NCBI GenBank assembly: GCA_949318235.1
Contig: OX439137.1
Coordinates: 14,521,291 to 14,585,290 of the forward strand
DNA: 64,000 bases
Origin: Ecdyonurus torrentis
Lineage: Eukaryota > Arthropoda > Insecta > Ephemeroptera > Heptageniidae
Direction of reading: 5' to 3'
Below, piece after piece: positions 5,694-56,287 of the stretch; the stretch's first letter is position 1, and each line of letters starts with the position of its first letter. Under the pieces are notes generated by a model. It was given only the letters and a program-made list of their open reading frames with translations, made no database searches and was not told the DNA's origin. A program made the position numbers and the translations under genes.

Positions 5694-7270
5694 TAAAAAT
5701 AATATTGATATGTAATTTTTAATTGAAGAAAACCAAATAATTAAGTAATTACTTTTTTTCCTGCAAACTTGATTTAAAGCGGCAATTTGAATCAAAATTC
5801 TGTATGACACAATAGCACATTGGAGAACGAGTTAGACTTTATTAAAATATTATTACATATCAAATAATTTTTCAATTCAAATATTCAGTATAATATTCTG
5901 AATTAATAAAATTGCATTTTGGTTAAATTATAATATCACTTGTCATGCAAATAAATTAAATTTTGAATATGATTTTTAAGTCTAGATCAAGCCATTTTGG
6001 TTCCACGCCATAACTTTAAATTTAATAGTTAAAAAATAAAAAATAAATTGCCAAAATTTGAAAAATATGGTAATCATACATTTACGTACCTGTTATAGAT
6101 TATATATTTCCACTTTTTGTATAATATGTTTGATGAAAATGAATATTTCTGAGGACAATACGAGCCGGTAGATCTTTGCTGTGTGCGAAGTCTCTGCATG
6201 TGAGTGATTTGCAGATTTATGATGCAGGTTGGCCAATTTTATATATCTTAATAAAAATTAAATAATTAATAATTGATAAGACCACAGAAATTGTCATTGA
6301 ACAACAATTGAATTTTAAAAATTTGTTGCGCACTTAATTCTTTTATACACAGATAATTAAATAATATAACCGAATGTACAATTAGGCATCAAGGCTCATA
6401 TGATACGTCACATGGTATACATATGATCAGTTTTTTTTTTTCGTGTGTACGTGTCAATTCCGTTTTCTTAAGAGCTTCAGTCACATAATTCTCATTTTAA
6501 TTAAAATTGTAACTAAATGAAAGTATGTAAATTATTTCTATTAATAGGTGCTAAATATTTCCAAGAGAAGGTATAATTAATGTCCTATAAAAGAGATATA
6601 AAAATTGTTTATTCTCTCGCATATAGTCAGCACAGTTTTGCATGTCAACAGAAGAGAAAATATTAAACTATATTAGTGCCCCCCAAAAAAATTTGTACGT
6701 TGTAATTCATCACATCATTGTTTCCACCTCAAGTATTACTAGTTAAAAAATACATATTTATCTTCATTAATTTAAGATAAAATATAACGCAGAAAATACA
6801 CAAAAAAATGTATTCAATGCATTATTATTTTTAGTGTGAAGGAAGGTGTGACATTTATAAAAATATTAATCAATGCTTGCTCATTTTCATCACATTTTCA
6901 TCAATACAGCATAATCTATGCCATACTGCCCGATTAATGATACGAAAAAGATTGAACCAAACGATACAGCCTTGACTTTGGTTGGGTTATAAAGATGAGT
7001 TTTATTTAATTTATAAAAAAAAAGTGTCACCACATAATTTCAAAGGCGCGCCATAGTCAAGGAACGCAAGGCTAAAACTCATATGACAAAACCATTGAAT
7101 TGTGACTTAGGAAGCAAATTCACGGCCGGAGTCAATATCCTCTCAACAGCTATCATCTGTATGTATGTCATGCGTGAGTTTTTTTAATTTTAGTATTGAT
7201 AACAGAAGCAGCTAACACAGTAAGGCACGTTTAGTAAAGAATTTGATTTTTTTTTTAAATTTAATAAATA
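5694..7270. other. AT-rich stretch, no gene seen
   Basis: No recognisable gene. A short TCATTTTCATCACATTTTCA motif near 6880 resembles the start of the AT-rich hairpin family seen at 25687. Confidence 0.5.
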
Positions 7271-48323: not shown

Positions 48324-51300
48324 GTAAGAAAACTTACTTAGCAAAGCGTTAAATTTTCAATTTCTTTAAACCATTGTATGGTGGGTGTGGTATCAATGGT
48401 ATTAATTCTTTTATTTATTATTTTTTTAAATGTTCTCTTTTGCTTAACAATTTTCCTCATAATGAAATTGTATATAAATTAAATTATGTCCATATTGTAT
48501 ATTTTTGTTGCAGATGTAAAAAGGGCGGTGGAGTTATTGGAGAAGCTTCAGAAAAGTATGTTATTTCGTTGAGAAATAATATTTGAACATGGCCCTTTTA
48601 CAGTTTGTTTTTATTTTAGGTGGTGAAGTTCCTGCAACAAAATTAGCAGCTTTGCAAAAAGTTTTACAATCCGATTTTCTAAATGCAGTTCGTGAAGTTT
48701 ATGAACATGTATATGAAACTGTGGACATTCAAGGATCTCAAGATATTAGGGCTTCTGCAACTGCAAAGGTAAAGTAAACAAAAAATTTGTATTTTAAATG
48801 CTTCTTGGTATATACATACATACCAGCAGATAAATTTTTTGCTAAATCTACTAAATTTTGCAAAATACTTAAAAACTTGGAAAGGGGGCGCCCAGGTAAA
48901 AAAATAAAATAAAAAATAAAAGAGGGGTCCTTTTCTTGGAAAGCCAATCTCGAGGCCACAGGACCCCTCTTTTCGGAAAGCCACTATATCTTTCAGAACG
49001 CTTCTTAAAAGTTACCTCTACTTATTTTTTTTTTACCTGAGGGGGAGGGGGGAGAAATAATTGACCACCAATAAGATAAATATTTCGAATCAGTTTTAGG
49101 TACATATAGTATGTACTGGGTTATCTTCATGGTTGGGTCATTATTTTGTTCAGGGGTCATAATGCATGCCATATATTCTCTTGTAGTTCTGAAATTTTGT
49201 GACCAAGATCAAGACATCGTAGAAGTTTATTTGAAGTTGATAGACTTACCAGGGAGGTGATCAATGAGCCCCAAATGAGTGTGCAGAAGTGCCATTTAAA
49301 ATACTTATTGCACTCGCAATGTTAAAGCCCTTGTCAATTTACTTTTTTAACATTTAGAATACTAGATTGATAATTACCATACCTTATTATCCATGAATTA
49401 GACACCAACAAGTTGATTTTGTATTTATTTTTGTTTATTTTCCTTTTTGCGGTTATATCACGTATCTGACGTCACAATGTACCGATGGGGCCGTGATGGG
49501 GGTAAATAACTTGAGGGAGGAGCTTAAATTTATCTCGTGTCCACAGCGGTGACTGTGATTGGCGGTGGTAAATTGTGATGTCAGATACGTGATATACCGC
49601 AAAAAAGAAGATAAATGAAAATAAATTCAAAATCAACGTGATGGTGTCTAATTCATGGATATTAAGGTATGGTAATTATCAATCTAGTATTCTAAATGAT
49701 AAAAAAAGTAAGTTGACAAGGGCTTTAAAAAGTTCCTCAAACGAGAGAGTGACTTCGTATGTGATACTTGTATGGAGTATAAAAAAAAAAAAAAAAAAAA
49801 AAAAAATAGTTTCCATCTAAAAATAAACAGGTTCAAATTACAAGTTAATTTTTCAGGCTACAGTTGCTGCATTTGCTGCTAGTGAGGGTCACGCCCACCC
49901 CCGTGTTGTAGAACTGCCAAAGACAGAAGAGGGACTTGGTTTTAATGTAATGGGAGGTCGTGAACAGAATTCTCCAATTTACATTTCTCGTATCATCCCT
50001 GGAGGTGTTGCAGACAGACATGGTGGACTAAAGAGAGGAGACCAACTTCTTTCAGTTAATGGAGTGGTGAGTATATTAACTTAACATAAAGTTGAATCAC
50101 ATTTTTTATTCATTTGTTGTAACTTTGTGTTTCAAAATAATTACTCCCATTTACATACATTTTTTTATTTTATTATTATTATTATTGATAAATTTGAAAG
50201 AAAATAATAAGAGAAACCAGCAAGGGTCTTACCATAGTGAAGAGAGCCCCATAGTTTGGCGAAAATCTTGCTAGCACAAATGTAAAAAACTAACACATTG
50301 GAAATATTTTGGCAATAAACTCCAAGAGGGATGGAGTGTGTTATACCTTCATCAGTCCCTACAGACTTAGAGAGAAATATCATTTATAGTTTCTCTCTGA
50401 GTCTGTAAGGACTGATGAAGGCATAACACACTCCATCCCTCTTGGAGTTTATTCCGAAAATATTTCCAATTTGTTAATTTTTTATATCTGTGCTAGCAAG
50501 ATTTTCACCAAACTATGGGACTCTCTTCACTATGGTAAGAGTAAGACCCTTGCTGGTTTCTCATATCCTTTTCATTCAAATTTATCATAGATACCTATAA
50601 ATGCCTGCAATGGTTTATTTTCCTTAACATATTTTATTATTATTATTTTTGCTACCAGTACCCAAAGTTACAACATATAAGTGCAACTTTGTTTTCTTAT
50701 TATCAATTTATAAGTGTTAAATTTTTATAAAAATAAGTACATAGTTGGTACCAATGAAAATAGCAAAATGATTAGAGCATGTTAAAATGAAAATTAATTA
50801 TTAAAAGCAAAGATTTTCTAATTTGTTGAAATTAGACCCCATTTCCCAACAATCAACAAATTTGAGAATCCTCCTGTTTAATTAATTAAAGGGGTACTCA
50901 ACGATTGCTTTTTTTTTTTTTTTTTTTTTTTAATTAGCACCCTCCCAAAAACGTGATCTTCAATTTTTAATTATTAGCAAAAGTCGTTACAGCGACCTTG
51001 AACCTATATCACAACTAAACTTGCTCTTGCTAGTTTGGCACAAGAGTGAGTTACTTTTATTTTTGCTCATGTTATTTGACATATTTTACATACATATATA
51101 ATTTTTTTTTTTACGGCTACAGTAAAGTATGGTAGTTAAATAATTTATTCAATATACCTAATAATAAAATAAAATATATAATTTATTAATATTTATACCC
51201 ATGGATATATACTGTATATATCTGCGGCTGAGCAGCCAGAGTTACCATTTCTCTTCCAGCCTTCTAGGAGGCTGGAGGTAGGGCATGGAGCTTCTCTCTC

Positions 51301-54300
51301 CTCGCCATGCTGATGAGTCCTAGCAAGGATGAAACAGCTGTCCATGACTAGAGATGAGGTGCTGAAAATGACATCATGCTATGCAAAATGCTGACACTGT
51401 CTAAACCAATACACAAGCCAAAATTTCCCCTTTTTATGAAGATCGCTTTCTACAGATCAATATGAGCCACTTACATATGCGTATATATTTCTTTTCGACC
51501 TGTGTTAGAATATTTTCTCTACCACGCGTCCTTGTAACTGTAAGCTCATACTATCTTCCATTCCCCAATTTTTCCTAATCTATCTATGTGGTTTTCTACC
51601 AACTCTTTTAATTTGTAAAACTTTAGACCATAGTAAGTCTCCAAGGTAATTTCATTTGTTTCCCCTCTCTAATCTGATGGTCATGACGTGGACCATTTTC
51701 TAAAGAAAGTGGCATCACTTTGATGGGTCTGACGAGTTTTACTGATTTGTAAGTCTTAATTGTTAGAGTCTGTTGAATGTACACTGTGTGTTTAATGATT
51801 AAAATAAATTGATTGCTGTATCAATTTTCAGTCTGTGGAAGGAGAGAACCATGAGAAAGCTGTGGAGTTGCTGAAACAGGCTCAGGGATCAGTGAAGTTG
51901 GTCGTCAGATACACACCCAAGGTACATATAAGTCTTTTTTGTTTTCTACTTAAGGGAGTAGGTGACCGACTGATATCTTGCAAATTAGACGGTCGCAAAA
52001 TATAATATTAACACAAAGTAAAGAAGAAATGGTACATAATGTACTTAAAAGTTCAGCTGTGATGAAAATGTGAAAACATTATCAAATATTGAAGTTATTC
52101 CACTTTAAAGATTACATGCAAATGTGGAACTTCAAATTTTAGTCGAATTAGAAATTTTTTCAAATAAAAAATGTCATTACAACTTTTTTCGGAACGGAAA
52201 AAAAAAAAAAAAAAAAAAAAAACGCGATTTCATTTGAAAATTGTAGTACAATATTTGTTTTGCTGGAAATAAAGAACATACATACTCCATCATGTAAAAT
52301 TTTACTCTATTGCCTTAGGAGCCCATATTATATAAATTATATTACAGCAAAAATGTATGATGGTCTATCATGAATATTTTGAAATTTAAATAAGTTTACC
52401 ACACACTCAAATTTGGAACATTTTACTTGAATACTAAATTATCACGTCTTGCATAAAACATTGTTAATGTTGTAAAATGAAAAGACTGTACAGGAACTTT
52501 ATTGAAACTATATTATTGTAGTCATAAATTTGTTTATTTATTATTATGTAATTAATTAGGAAAGATTAAAACCATTTCGGTTTGAATTAATAGTCAATAA
52601 TTAATAATCAAAGAAAAGGATAGGAGAAACCAACAAGTGCTTTACCATGATGAGGTCTGTAGCTTGGTGAAAATCTTGTGGCACAGGTTACACAAATATT
52701 TACAAGTTAACTAAGACACCGTAGTGTAGTCTACACTCTAAGCAACTGAAGAAGAGGGTTGTTGCCCTCAAAATGTCTTAGTTAACTTGTAAATTTTTGT
52801 GTAACCTGTGCCATCAAGATTTTCACCGAGCTACAGACCTCATTGTGGTAAGGCGCTTGTTGGTTTCTCCTATCCCTTTCTTTGATTATTTATTTATTTA
52901 TTATTATGTTAATATAATATAGGAAAAAACCATCGCGGTTAGTATTAATTACGTTTAAAAAAATAATTAGAAAATAGTTGGTAGAGATTAGAGCACGTTG
53001 AATTGAAAATTAATAAAACGCGAAAATTCTCTAATTTAAATAGTAAATTGGGACTAGGGATGCAAATCATGCTAGCTTGCGCTAGATAAAAATAGACGTT
53101 AAAAGGGATGAGGGGTATAGTGTCAATGTAAAATACGATATACATACCTAACATCTCACGTTCTCACACTACATCAGAGGCACAACATTATAAAACAGCA
53201 TCAGACTTACTCTTGGCCTTAGACCGGTTTCGTCCTTTACCTAGGACTCATCAGTAAGGCTCGGCAGAGAGCTCTGTACAGCTAGAGATGGCTCACACCA
53301 CATCTGCTAACTGACTGAGCTGAGGAAGCAAGTGGCAGCCGCGTTTTTATACGCGATGCCCCCGCAGCTGCTCGCGCTGATTGGTTGAACAATCGCGCGC
53401 GCAAACCCGGCTTGCTATTTAAAACCTCTCATCCTCACACTGTAATATAATATTGTGCACTAAGAGGGATGCAAGACTGGCTGCCAGCAAGCCACATGTG
53501 TCCTCCCTCACTTCCTAGAGTTCCCCAACTCCAGAAAGTTCGCGAGAGCAATGCGCCTGCCGGCCGCCTGTATCGTGATTAAGCTAGTTATATCGTTTAA
53601 ATTGACACCGGGGTAGGAAAAGTAAAAAGATGATAGAAATAGGAGAGATAGGATAAAAATATATGCGCTTTAGCATATTTTTAATTTAATTAATTTAGTA
53701 CGTGCTCTTATTGGCGTTGGCAAGTAAAAAGGGCCGAGAATACAATATAAATGAAAGAATCTTATTTACAAAAGCTTTCTCGGCCCTTTTTACTTGCCAA
53801 CGCCAATAAGAGCACGTACTAAATTAATTAAATTAAAAATATGCTAAAGCGCATATATTTTTATCCTATCTCTCCTATTTCTATCATCTTTTTACTTTTC
53901 CTACCCCGGTGTCAATTTAAACGATATAACAAGCTTAATCACGATACAGGCGGCCGGCAGGCGCATTGCTCTCGCGAACTTTCTGGAGTTGGGGAACTCT
54001 AGGAAGTGAGGGAGGACACATGTGGCTTGCTGGCAGCCAGTCTTGCATCCCTCTTAGTGCACAATATTATATTACAGTGTGAGGATGAGAGGTTTTAAAT
54101 AGCAAGCCGGGTTTGCGCGCGCGATTGTTCAACCAATCAGCGCGAGCAGCTGCGGGGGCATCCCGTATAAAAACGCGGCTGCCACTTGCTTCCTCAGCTC
54201 AGTCAGTTAGCAGATGTGGTGTGAGCCATCTCTAGCTGTACAGAGCTCTCTGCCGAGCCTTACTGATGAGTCCTAGGTAAAGGACGAAACCGGTCTAAGG

Positions 54301-55757
54301 CCAAGAGTAAGTCAATTTAAACGATATAACTAGCTTAATCACGATACAGGCGGCCGGCAGGCGCATTGCTCTCGCGAACTTTCTGGAGTTGGGGAACTCT
54401 AGGAAGTGAGGGAGGACACATGTGGCTTGCTGGCAGCCAGTCTTGCATCCCTCTTAGTGCACAATATTATATTACAGTGTGAGGATGAGAGGTTTTAAAT
54501 AGCAAGCCGGGTTTGCGCGCGCGATTGTTCAACCAATCAGCGCGAGCAGCTGCGGGGGCATCGCGTATAAAAACGCGGCTGCCACTTGCTTCCTCAGCTC
54601 AGTCAGTTAGCAGATGTGGTGTGAGCCATCTCTAGCTGTACAGAGCTCTCTGCCGAGCCTTACTGATGAGTCCTAGGTAAAGGACGAAACCGGTCTAAGG
54701 CCAAGAGTAAGTCTGATGCTGTTTTATAATGTTGTGCCTCTGATGTAGTGTGAGAACGTGAGATGTTAGGTATGTATATCGTATTTTACATTGACACTAT
54801 ACCCCTCATCCCTTTTAACGTCTATTTTTATCTTGCGCAAGCTAGCATGATTTGCATCCCTAGTCCCAATTTACTATTTAAATTAGAGAATTTTCGCGTT
54901 TTATTAATTTTCAATTCAACGTGCTCTAATCTCTACCAACTATTTTCTAATTATTTTATTATTATGTTAATTGTAAATAATGACTATACCAATGCTTGTA
55001 GTAACAAGGTTATGTTAATATGAACTGCCTGGGTCAATAAAATTTCTTATTCTTATTAGAGTAAAGGTAAAGAATAAATTTTTCTATGACAGAGTCTGTA
55101 TAAAGAATTATTGTGAAAATATAGATCCTCTTTTAATGATTTCTGGTCCAAGTCGGAGACTCTCTTTGGTAAAATTTGTAGGCTTGTACTTGTAGTGCCT
55201 TCACATACAACTATTCATTATTTTCTTGTAACTTTGTGTAGCAGGTTTTTAGTTTGTATGACAATAAAAAGAGTTGATATGTACTTTGATGTAGTAGTAG
55301 GTTAGGAAAAATTGGGGAATGGGAGATAGTATTGAAAAGTAAATTTTTCATTAATATTTATTAGGTTTTTAGTTTGTGTAATTTTTTGCATAACAAAATT
55401 CAGTTCTACGTACTTAATTGGTTTAACTCAATATTTTCCTTTTAATTTTATCTTATAATAACCATAATTATTATTTGAAATAAATTTGTATTGATTATGT
55501 ATAGGCCTATAGTAAAAATAAAACTACTGGAGTTGTGGTAACATTAAAAATTACATTTAACTTTTATACATAATTTTGTGCAGGAAAAAAAAAAAAAAAA
55601 ATGCACTCAGATTCAACTGCCAAAATCAAAATGTCTAAAATAAAAATGAAGGTTTGCAGAAATTGATTTGTTACATTTTGCTTCACAGGTTCTTGAAGAG
55701 ATGGAAATGAGATTTGACAAACAAAGGGCAGCACGACGCAGGCAACATTACCAGTAA
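48284..55757 (+). CDS. lin-7: LIN-7 (Veli/MALS) L27-PDZ scaffold protein, complete 6-exon gene
   Basis: Small polarity and synaptic scaffold. In the known family it joins the CASK/LIN-2 and Mint/LIN-10 complex through its L27 domain and places receptors and channels through its PDZ domain. Exons: 48284-48323, 48514-48555, 48620-48768, 49857-50066, 51832-51921, 55689-55757. They total 600 bases (199 residues and TAA) and every junction is GT-AG and in frame. The L27 domain covers about residues 10-65 ([13 protein letters not shown] ... [20 protein letters not shown]). The PDZ domain covers about 93-175, with carboxylate-binding loop G103-LGF-106, RIIPGG at 122-127 and [10 protein letters not shown] at 137-146. 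The C-terminal tail ([11 protein letters not shown]) is basic and coiled-coil-like, as in insect homologues. The start has A at -3 and an N-terminus, [13 protein letters not shown], typical of the family. Introns 4 and 5 hold ribozyme-bearing repeats. Confidence 0.97.
48514..48555 (+). CDS. lin-7: lin-7 exon 2 (42 bases)
   Basis: Small exon coding D14 (split) to K27 plus one base, the first L27 helix ([13 protein letters not shown]). Acceptor TTGTTGCAG, donor GTATGT. Confidence 0.94.
48620..48768 (+). CDS. lin-7: lin-7 exon 3: rest of the L27 domain
   Basis: Codes S28 (split) to K77. It contains [18 protein letters not shown] and [13 protein letters not shown], the second and third L27 helices. 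Acceptor TATTTTAG, donor GTAAAG. Confidence 0.96.
48768..49856 (+). other. lin-7 intron 3
   Basis: The intron runs from 48769 and holds a small inverted repeat (AGAGGGGTCCTTTT and AGGACCCCTCTTTTC, 48920-48977) and a 407 bp TTAA-ended MITE. Confidence 0.8.
49322..49728. mobile_element. 407 bp palindromic MITE with TTAA ends in lin-7 intron 3
   Basis: TTAAAGCCCTTGTCAATTTA at the left is mirrored by AGTTGACAAGGGCTTTAA at the right. The arms continue through TTCTAAATG / CATTTAGAAT, GATTGATAATTACCATACCT and CACGTATCTGACGTCACAAT. The loop at 49480-49570 is GC-richer and non-coding. Confidence 0.85.
49857..50066 (+). CDS. lin-7: lin-7 exon 4: start of the PDZ domain
   Basis: Codes residues 78-147 in phase 0. 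It contains [18 protein letters not shown] with the GLGF ligand loop, and [20 protein letters not shown]. Acceptor TTTTTCAG, donor GTGAGT. Confidence 0.97.
50186..50587. mobile_element. Foldback element with hammerhead-like core, lin-7 intron 4
   Basis: Nearly perfect inverted repeat: left GATAAATTTGAAAGAAAATA ... GAAACCAGCAAGGGTCTTAC, right mirror ending AAATTTATC. Each arm carries CTGATGAAGG ... ACTCC/GGAGT ... with CCGAAAA on the plus strand (50412-50460) and a mutated counterpart on the minus strand. This is the arrangement of hammerhead core strands CUGAUGA and GAAA. Confidence 0.7.
51304..51348 (+). ncRNA. Type I hammerhead ribozyme, divergent copy, lin-7 intron 4
   Basis: Core CTGATGA at 51310-51316. 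Stem II is GTCC/GGAT (51317-51320, 51327-51330) with loop TAGCAA; GAAA at 51331-51334; stem III ACAG/CTGT with almost no loop; cleavage triplet GTC at 51340-51342. Stem I is CATG/CATG (51306-51309 with 51343-51346). All invariant core bases are present. It lies within a less AT-rich block at about 51225-51420, probably a relic of a Penelope-like or retrozyme element. Confidence 0.75.
51832..51921 (+). CDS. lin-7: lin-7 exon 5: end of the PDZ domain
   Basis: Codes residues 148-177. [17 protein letters not shown] is the second PDZ helix, and [10 protein letters not shown] the last strand. Acceptor AATTTTCAG, donor GTACAT. Confidence 0.96.
51950..52165 (-). mobile_element. Element H fragment in lin-7 intron 5
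   Basis: GGAGTAGGTGACCGACTGATATC and the following AT-rich 200 bases match, in reverse, 8890-9070 (GATATCAGTCGGTCACCTAC, CTTTACTTTGTGTTA). Confidence 0.6.
52603..52890. mobile_element. Foldback element with hammerhead-like core, lin-7 intron 5
   Basis: The arms AATCAAAGAAAAGGATAGGA ... AGTTAACTAAGACA and their mirror share the same terminal plan (GAAACCA.CAAG, CTTACCAT, TTGG.GAAAATCTTG) as the element at 50186. The loop has CTGAAGA (52746), a GAGGG/CCCTC stem, AAAA and TGTC: a hammerhead-like core with the seventh-position changes U to A and GAAA to AAAA. Confidence 0.65.
53207..53606 (-). repeat. 400 bp ribozyme unit 3 (inverted)
   Basis: The same unit on the minus strand in the left arm, with its own CCAAT, TATA and hammerhead motifs. 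Confidence 0.88.
53216..53260 (-). ncRNA. Type I hammerhead ribozyme, unit 3 (minus strand)
   Basis: Identical core and stems on the minus strand. The predicted cleavage site is after the C opposite 53222. Confidence 0.9.
54133..54208 (+). promoter_or_regulatory. Promoter motifs in ribozyme unit 1
   Basis: CCAAT at 54133-54137, TATAAAAA at 54166-54173 and an initiator-like TCAGTC/TCAGTT at 54199-54208, about 35 bases after the TATA box. Together they resemble an RNA polymerase II core promoter about 90 bases ahead of the ribozyme cleavage site. Unit 2 has the same set at +400, and unit 3 on the minus strand (TATA opposite 53344-53351). Confidence 0.55.
54257..54301 (+). ncRNA. Type I hammerhead ribozyme, unit 1
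   Basis: Stem I GCCTTA (54257-54262) with TAAGGC (54296-54301). Core CTGATGA (54263-54269). Stem II GTCC/GGAC (54270-54273, 54282-54285) with loop TAGGTAAA. GAAA (54286-54289). Two-base-pair stem III CC/GG without a loop. Cleavage after the C of GTC at 54295. Every conserved core base is present. Such a short stem III in known elements usually means the RNA works as a dimer. Confidence 0.9.
54311..54710 (+). repeat. 400 bp ribozyme unit 2 (direct tandem)
   Basis: Exactly 400 bases after unit 1 and nearly identical. After its end the sequence continues GTCTGATGCTG into the outer arm. Confidence 0.9.
54657..54701 (+). ncRNA. Type I hammerhead ribozyme, unit 2
   Basis: Identical to the unit 1 ribozyme, 400 bases downstream. 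Cleavage here and at 54295 would release a 400-nt RNA. Confidence 0.9.
54958..55688 (+). other. 3' part of lin-7 intron 5
   Basis: Begins with GGGTCAATAAAATTTCTTAT and a CTTATT-type tail near 55033-55060, resembling the 3' end of a retrotransposon. The rest is AT-rich and unremarkable up to the exon 6 acceptor. Confidence 0.4.
55689..55757 (+). CDS. lin-7: lin-7 exon 6: C-terminal tail and stop
   Basis: Codes residues 178-199 and TAA. It begins [19 protein letters not shown], the conserved tail of arthropod LIN-7. Acceptor GCTTCACAG, 3767 bases after exon 5. Confidence 0.95.
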   Translation, partial: VLEEMEMRFDKQRAARRRQHYQ

Positions 55758-55886: not shown

Positions 55887-55923
55887 ATTTTAAATTAAAG
55901 AAATTAAAAAGATTTAAAAAATC

Positions 55924-56287
55924 TTAAAGGCATAGAACACATTGAACAAAAACTTTTCTAATAACAAGTAATATCATAACATACCTGAAAATCATTGTTA
56001 ATTTGGCCAAAGTCATTGATTTCTAATTTATTTTCCAATCACAAAATAACAAATGCAGATTATGACGTCACAGCTAGTTGGTCCATGATTGCTTAAAACA
56101 AGTGAGCTGTGCATGTCATATACCACATCCTCCATTTCGTGAATAGAAAATTAATTTAAAATCAACAACTCCGTCCAAATCAACGTTGATTTTCAGGAAT
56201 GTTATTTATTAGGATATTACCTGTCATCGTTAGACATTATTTATTTATTATTATTATTTTTTTGTTCAATGTGTTCTATAGCTTTAA
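55924..56287. mobile_element. MITE family B, copy 4
   Basis: TTAA at both ends, TTAAAGGCATAGAACAC to GTTCTATAGCTTTAA. TGACGTCA at 56063. It lies about 40 bases after the lin-7 AATAAA signal. Confidence 0.8.

Follow-up and report, generated by a model that had tools for sequence, protein, structure and literature searches.

Head-to-head arms of a young non-coding hammerhead element in a mayfly intron suggest Penelope-type copying

The window, a stretch of 64,000 nucleotides from the genome of Ecdyonurus torrentis, contains a young non-coding hammerhead element with two head-to-head arms, which appear to be products of Penelope-type copying. The element probably (at roughly 0.8) belongs to a non-autonomous, non-coding family of Penelope-like elements (PLEs) that is copied in trans, with both target strands each priming once.

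One insertion of the element is situated at 52914-54954 inside a putative lin-7 intron, between two 17-bp target duplications, with a PDZ exon on one side (49857-50066) and a protein-like frame downstream, near 55698. The naming of the host gene as lin-7 and of this intron as its last are assumptions. The two arms were mapped by blastn to a natural monomer of the family (L017:5883-6786), and the tail ends were classified separately. The features of the insertion are:

52897..52913, no strand: left target-site duplication TTTATTATTATGTTAAT, a 17-bp match to 54955-54971
52914..53776, minus strand: left arm, 5'-truncated, monomer ~83-904 and the long tail, which reaches ~49 nt beyond 904
53207..53606, minus strand: unit 3, an inverted promoter-hammerhead module
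53216..53260, minus strand: type I hammerhead of unit 3, Rfam Hammerhead_1 (RF00163), 30.0 bits
53777..54954, plus strand: right arm with short tail, monomer 120-660 joined to 255-904
53911..54310, plus strand: unit 1
54133..54204, plus strand: core promoter motifs of unit 1 (CCAAT 54133, TATAAAAA 54166, Inr-like TCAGTC 54199), at motif level only
54257..54301, plus strand: type I hammerhead of unit 1, RF00163, 30.0 bits, predicted cut after 54295
54311..54710, plus strand: unit 2, which meets unit 1 at a GTC microhomology
CCAAT 54533, TATAAAAA 54566 and TCAGTC 54599, plus strand: core promoter motifs of unit 2
54657..54701, plus strand: type I hammerhead of unit 2, RF00163, 30.0 bits, predicted cut after 54695
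54714..54954, plus strand: 3' region common to family copies, which stops near the short 3' end
54955..54971, no strand: right target-site duplication TTTATTATTATGTTAAT, a 17-bp match to 52897-52913

Since the whole structure lies between the two copies of TTTATTATTATGTTAAT, a single event is the simplest origin for both arms. The end of the left arm carries an extra tail of about 33-45 nt, which the right arm lacks. The sequence-only reading had described three near-identical 400-bp units, each with CCAAT, TATAAAAA, a TCAGT-type site and a hammerhead, and all three are present (53207-53606, 53911-54310 and 54311-54710). As it had also stated, units 1 and 2 are exactly 400 nt apart, with 2 differences between them; unit 3 is identical to unit 2. 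The proposed tandem arrangement applies to units 1 and 2, which are direct repeats, but unit 3 is inverted and the inverted repeat is larger than the units, with 248-nt flanks and a 134-nt body repeated too. The near identity of the arms would fit an assembly artefact, in which a chimeric read produces a palindrome or duplication. This explanation is hardly credible, given that the same architecture is found at many places, each with separate target duplications, and that units 1 and 2 differ at those 2 sites.

Other repeats are present in the window. A palindromic, MITE-like repeat at 50227-50540, with arms 93% complementary over 151 nt, has many relatives in the fetched loci, and an interspersed repeat at 55915-56227 has relatives near 7265, 17830 and 30670. 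Matches to miRNA, sRNA and scaRNA models in palindromes were rejected, as all are below the gathering scores and reflect long hairpins.

Each of the three unit hammerheads matches the covariance model over its full length, from position 1 to position 45, with an E value of 3.6e-4 for 10 kb. The earlier claim of a complete type I hammerhead therefore stands as to length, but the 30.0 bits fall short of the RF00163 gathering score of 34. Read from the sequence, stem I pairs GCCUUA with UAAGGC, stem II pairs GUCC with GGAC, and stem III consists of A-U and C-G only, around the self-complementary ACCGGU; this is the two-base-pair stem III that had been proposed, and the predicted cut positions, 54295 and 54695, come out the same. 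The units have the conserved core and the stem I and stem II pairing of a type I hammerhead. A relaxed-threshold Rfam search returned the family hammerhead at 29.6-30.0 bits in 14 places in 7 loci, and no RF00163 match over the gathering threshold was found in 12 further loci. Plain folding of the ribozyme region is no better than that of shuffles (z -1.28). The exact 39-nt hammerhead occurs in 1,001 copies in the 503-Mb genome and a reversed control pattern in 0, so the hammerhead repeat is not due to chance. All 46/46 hammerhead positions are unchanged in the two arms of a subfamily at 89% identity, but a copy at 75% identity has lost the hammerhead, in a region-by-region comparison biased by the choice of loci for their similarity to the unit. 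Minimal hammerheads in PLEs are reportedly the subject of work by Cervera and de la Pena (2014) and by Lunse and colleagues (2017). Passages of PMC7229834 and PMC7761336 describe minimal type I hammerheads for PLEs.

The repeating unit of the family is larger than 400 nt. A genome search with the 400-nt unit gave at least 47 matches (the best 40 of 1,268 candidates were scored), and the mapping of 20 + 12 loci identified a monomer of ~904 nt (L017:5883-6786) that is often partly tandem. Among the first 100 of the 1,001 hammerheads, same-strand neighbours are 886-904 nt apart in 12/12 cases, and none are at 400. The junction of units 1 and 2, allowing at most 1 mismatch, occurs once in the 503-Mb genome, at the window locus, so the 400-bp tandem is private to that locus; its GTC junction suggests an origin by a jump or duplication from monomer 660 back to 255. 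The 400-nt unit as the repeat of the family is thus not borne out, and because the tandem is private and the monomer is 886-904 bp long, a 400-nt circle is not the unit of the family; such a circle is conceivable at the window locus alone.

Most copies read share one common 3' end region and have variable 5' truncation, and some insertions contain 2-3 tandem monomers per arm, with an in-locus spacing of 888 throughout or of 901-904. A cluster of 5' ends lies at monomer 240-258. A tie of the 5' ends to the hammerhead cut or the promoter was considered and rejected, as arms with 2-3 full monomers speak against any general limit; we note that the L041 arm begins at monomer 643, the first base past the predicted cut, and an L026b arm at monomer 547, at the Inr-like site. 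Divergence has a median of 0.8% within insertions (38 comparisons, some of them between tandem monomers within a single arm and 2 involving an old fragment in L022) and of 2.2% between loci (870 comparisons, excluding L026a). The L026a arms differ from each other at 4/762 positions, though both are about 11% from the reference. At L026b, one arm joins monomers that differ at 13/356 positions, while its opposite arms differ at 5/653; this arm also spans an intact hammerhead (L026:5171-5215), so that uncut multimeric RNA appears to be copyable.

The sequence-only reading had left the choice between a retrozyme and a Penelope-like terminal repeat. In a metazoan non-LTR retrozyme, a tandem-repeat transcript is cut, ligated into a small circle and reverse transcribed by rolling circle. 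Like such elements, the family is a non-coding repeat with a type I hammerhead that may occur in tandem, and the near-equal spacing of the 2-3 tandem monomers within a locus would suit this origin. We nevertheless regard it as unlikely. The monomer of 886-904 bp exceeds the 150-450 bp reported for retrozyme tandem monomers in passages of PMC7229834, the hammerhead is minimal, the arms are head-to-head with long and short tails, and one circle would not give an arm whose monomers differ more than the opposite arms do, as at L026b. The family also has promoter motifs of its own, whereas retrozymes are said in part of PMC7761336 to be without promoters; this argument is weak because a plant retrozyme promoter is reported in the abstract of PMC9695139. 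The Penelope-type idea, on the other hand, was largely right. The family lacks the ORF with PLE RT and GIY-YIG of an autonomous PLE, and it has the features of a non-autonomous one: promoter motifs and a type I hammerhead (at motif level, the latter below the Rfam threshold), a 30-40 nt tail on one inverted end, a short target duplication, 5' truncation, and head-to-head or tandem copies.

The monomer is non-coding, the longest frame in the doubled monomer being 90 aa. No RT match was found in the flanks of L009-L028, L031-L041 or the window, and a single match, of 56 residues, links L010 to the N-terminal part of the frame of L042, an ORF-bearing PLE described below. The ~900-bp monomer could belong to a larger autonomous PLE as its terminal repeat, the copies then being solo terminal repeats; it is non-coding and carries promoter motifs and a hammerhead as PLE terminal repeats do, and only 150 of 467 RT candidates were scored. 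We consider this rather unlikely, because tandem monomers adjoin without an intervening ORF and the fetched flanks contain no RT.

Evidence for Penelope-type copying by two primed strands comes from the arm ends. Family copies have two alternative 3' ends ~33 nt apart, long and short. Both outer ends are readable in 18 head-to-head pairs: the window, L007, L017, L019-L022, L024, L026 (twice), L027, L032-L036, L039 and L052. An automated classifier assigned a long tail to one arm and a short tail to the other in 17 of the 18, and at least 17/18 such pairs would have a P of about 5e-5 if the arms were independent; L052 was bound to carry at least one long tail because it was picked via a tail-containing query. 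The exception, L036, has two short tails and no target duplication, with only 7 bp common to its ends. Dropped before this count were two duplicates (L028 of L027, and L012b, which is the L007 insertion), two insertions whose second arm stops inside (L012a and L016), L041 (stretch reads N), L051 (a local duplication with host flank, fetched for tandem copies), and those with one readable arm (L009, L010, L011, L013, L014, L015, L018, L023, L025, L037, L038 and L040); by eye, L013 and L037 have a second arm of only ~10-13 nt. The second arm of L012a and L016 stops at monomer 826-829 rather than at the tail, which counts against the rule. In the match list for the tail query, three opposite-strand neighbours of long-tailed arms end at 255-258, the short end, and three others, which also tell against the rule, stop before reaching either end, at 211, 234 and 236. 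Among the first 100 of the 1,001 hammerheads, all 21/21 neighbours that lie on opposite strands no more than 3 kb apart are head-to-head. Self-folding of the tail gave z -2.11 and -1.17.

Family insertions have target duplications of ~14 bp. The two ends have a sequence of at least 12 bp in common in 14/16 pairs versus 5/238 mismatched controls, although two of these 14 (L019 and L027) are uninformative because of their position in AT repeats. By eye, L007 has a 14-bp duplication with one mismatch, and L039 and L052 have duplications of 14-15 bp.

Palindromic head-to-head Penelope copies were attributed in 2013 to self-priming, in a proposal contained in a passage of PMC3846280. Head-to-head arms would then arise from one cDNA rather than from two primed ones. 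The 5' ends of both arms are within ~12 nt of each other in 5/17 long/short pairs, for which independent truncation does not account and which would fit self-priming. Self-priming is nonetheless quite improbable: the tails of the two arms differ in 17/18 pairs, where snap-back copying should presumably give the second arm the same tail as the first, and the 5' ends usually differ. Two separately primed cDNAs fit the tail counts better.

The same genome contains ORF-bearing PLEs. A PLE RT query yielded 467 candidates and at least 150 scored matches; many of the matches sit in 800-900 aa open frames, and some are arrayed in tandem at intervals of about 2.77 kb. The open frame of L042, of a family that we call PLE-A, is 873 aa long and contains RVT_1; its GIY-YIG match, at 20 bits, stays below the cut-off of 22.6. 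All 4/4 PLE-A insertions read (L042; L043/L044; L045/L046; L047) have a short 3' end at 142-144 and a long one at 174-177, 32-35 nt apart, and PLE-A thus shares the insertion geometry of the non-coding family. It differs from that family in coding for RT and a GIY-YIG-like domain, and has no detectable nucleotide similarity to the monomer. Comparison of the monomer with the sampled ORF-bearing PLEs L042, L048, L049 and L050 revealed no nucleotide similarity beyond chance, and the match of the monomer tail to the same four is not above shuffles.

The genome search for GIY-YIG gave two matches, both over the cut-off; the PLEs escaped it, since at 20 bits their domain does not reach that cut-off. 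One match is presumably a host SLX1-like exon. L030, a 1496-aa frame with a GIY-YIG score of 28.7 bits, was rejected as a PLE, as it shows no recognised PLE features and is apparently not one. By eye, a hammerhead-like core (CTGAAGA...GAAAC) overlaps the start of the PLE ORF at L042:200-260, as in PAc of Anolis carolinensis. The PLE arrays L048 (C12:32149032-32157905) and L049 (C4:3644716-3650800) have a period of about 2.77 kb and frames up to 846-850 aa; L049 has a hammerhead-like core directly 3' of the stop codon, and L048 a similar one by eye.

The Penelope/Poseidon-type PLEs PAc and Pen2a (of Adineta vaga) resemble the family in having a terminal repeat with promoter motifs, which in PAc also carries a hammerhead. 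Their copies, like those of the family, are tandem or inverted and 5'-truncated, with short target duplications and AT-rich target sites, and they share the optional tail of about 31-40 nt, which in A. vaga is found on one inverted end. In contrast to them, the family has no ORF and a ~900-nt monomer; where PAc has its ORF start, the family has ~244 nt of non-coding sequence between hammerhead and tail. Its target duplications of ~14 bp compare with 8-10 bp in the portion of the literature on A. vaga that gives them. Passages of PMC3846280 describe a 31-bp tail that one of the inverted terminal repeats (pLTRs) may or may not carry in A. vaga, and a TATA and Inr-like sequence in the pLTR; the tail counts reported here make that remark on an optional tail a near-rule. 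In part of a 2024 study (PMC11167929), the protein of a PLE is described as cutting and extending the two target strands in vitro, starting at two internal RNA sites that bound the tail and accepting unprocessed RNA. Among open-licence titles and abstracts matching the terms used, neither the rule of one long and one short tail nor a non-coding hammerhead PLE family of such build is stated.

The reading that we prefer, trans-copying of a non-autonomous PLE family, can be put as follows. Each ~900-nt monomer combines core promoter motifs of the Pol II type with a minimal type I hammerhead, and its 3' tail would be recognised by a PLE protein. A resident autonomous PLE would supply the RT/GIY-YIG protein that acts in trans on a transcript through one or more monomers; ORFs of such PLEs are observed in this genome, and their proteins would be the partners of the monomer RNA. 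The target strands would be cut ~14 bp apart and each would prime one cDNA, one beginning at the short-tail site and the other ~33 nt further 3', after which the two 5'-truncated cDNAs would be joined head to head. The pattern of ends is observed, and this order of events is the one we infer from it. The hammerhead presumably trims multimeric transcripts to monomers, and cleavage and circle formation are likewise presumed.

A second hammerhead family is found at 51246-51614. Its hammerhead in the window (51304-51348), which the sequence-only reading did not include, scores 35.3 bits, over the Rfam threshold. The family looks non-coding and has at least 59 matches (the best 40 of 1,990 candidates were scored); the near-full-length matches listed, the window's own aside, are 81-88% identical. 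Two insertions, L053 and L054, are head-to-head with one long and one short end each (2/2, by eye), and contain TATA and CAGTCAGT motifs and hammerheads of 39.2 bits. The hammerhead of this family has a longer stem III with a tetraloop, yet the insertion geometry is that of PLEs. We lean slightly towards the view that PLE integration is intrinsically asymmetric, with an inner and an outer RT start on the respective strands, and that both non-coding hammerhead families are inserted in this way.

If true, a shared asymmetric reaction would tie retrozyme-like elements to PLEs. The element in the window gives genomic evidence on the route by which PLEs insert and on the frequency of their head-to-head copies. 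A family with about a thousand exact hammerheads in one genome permits the tails to be counted insertion by insertion, and the proposed link of PLEs to hammerhead-bearing non-coding elements becomes directly testable.
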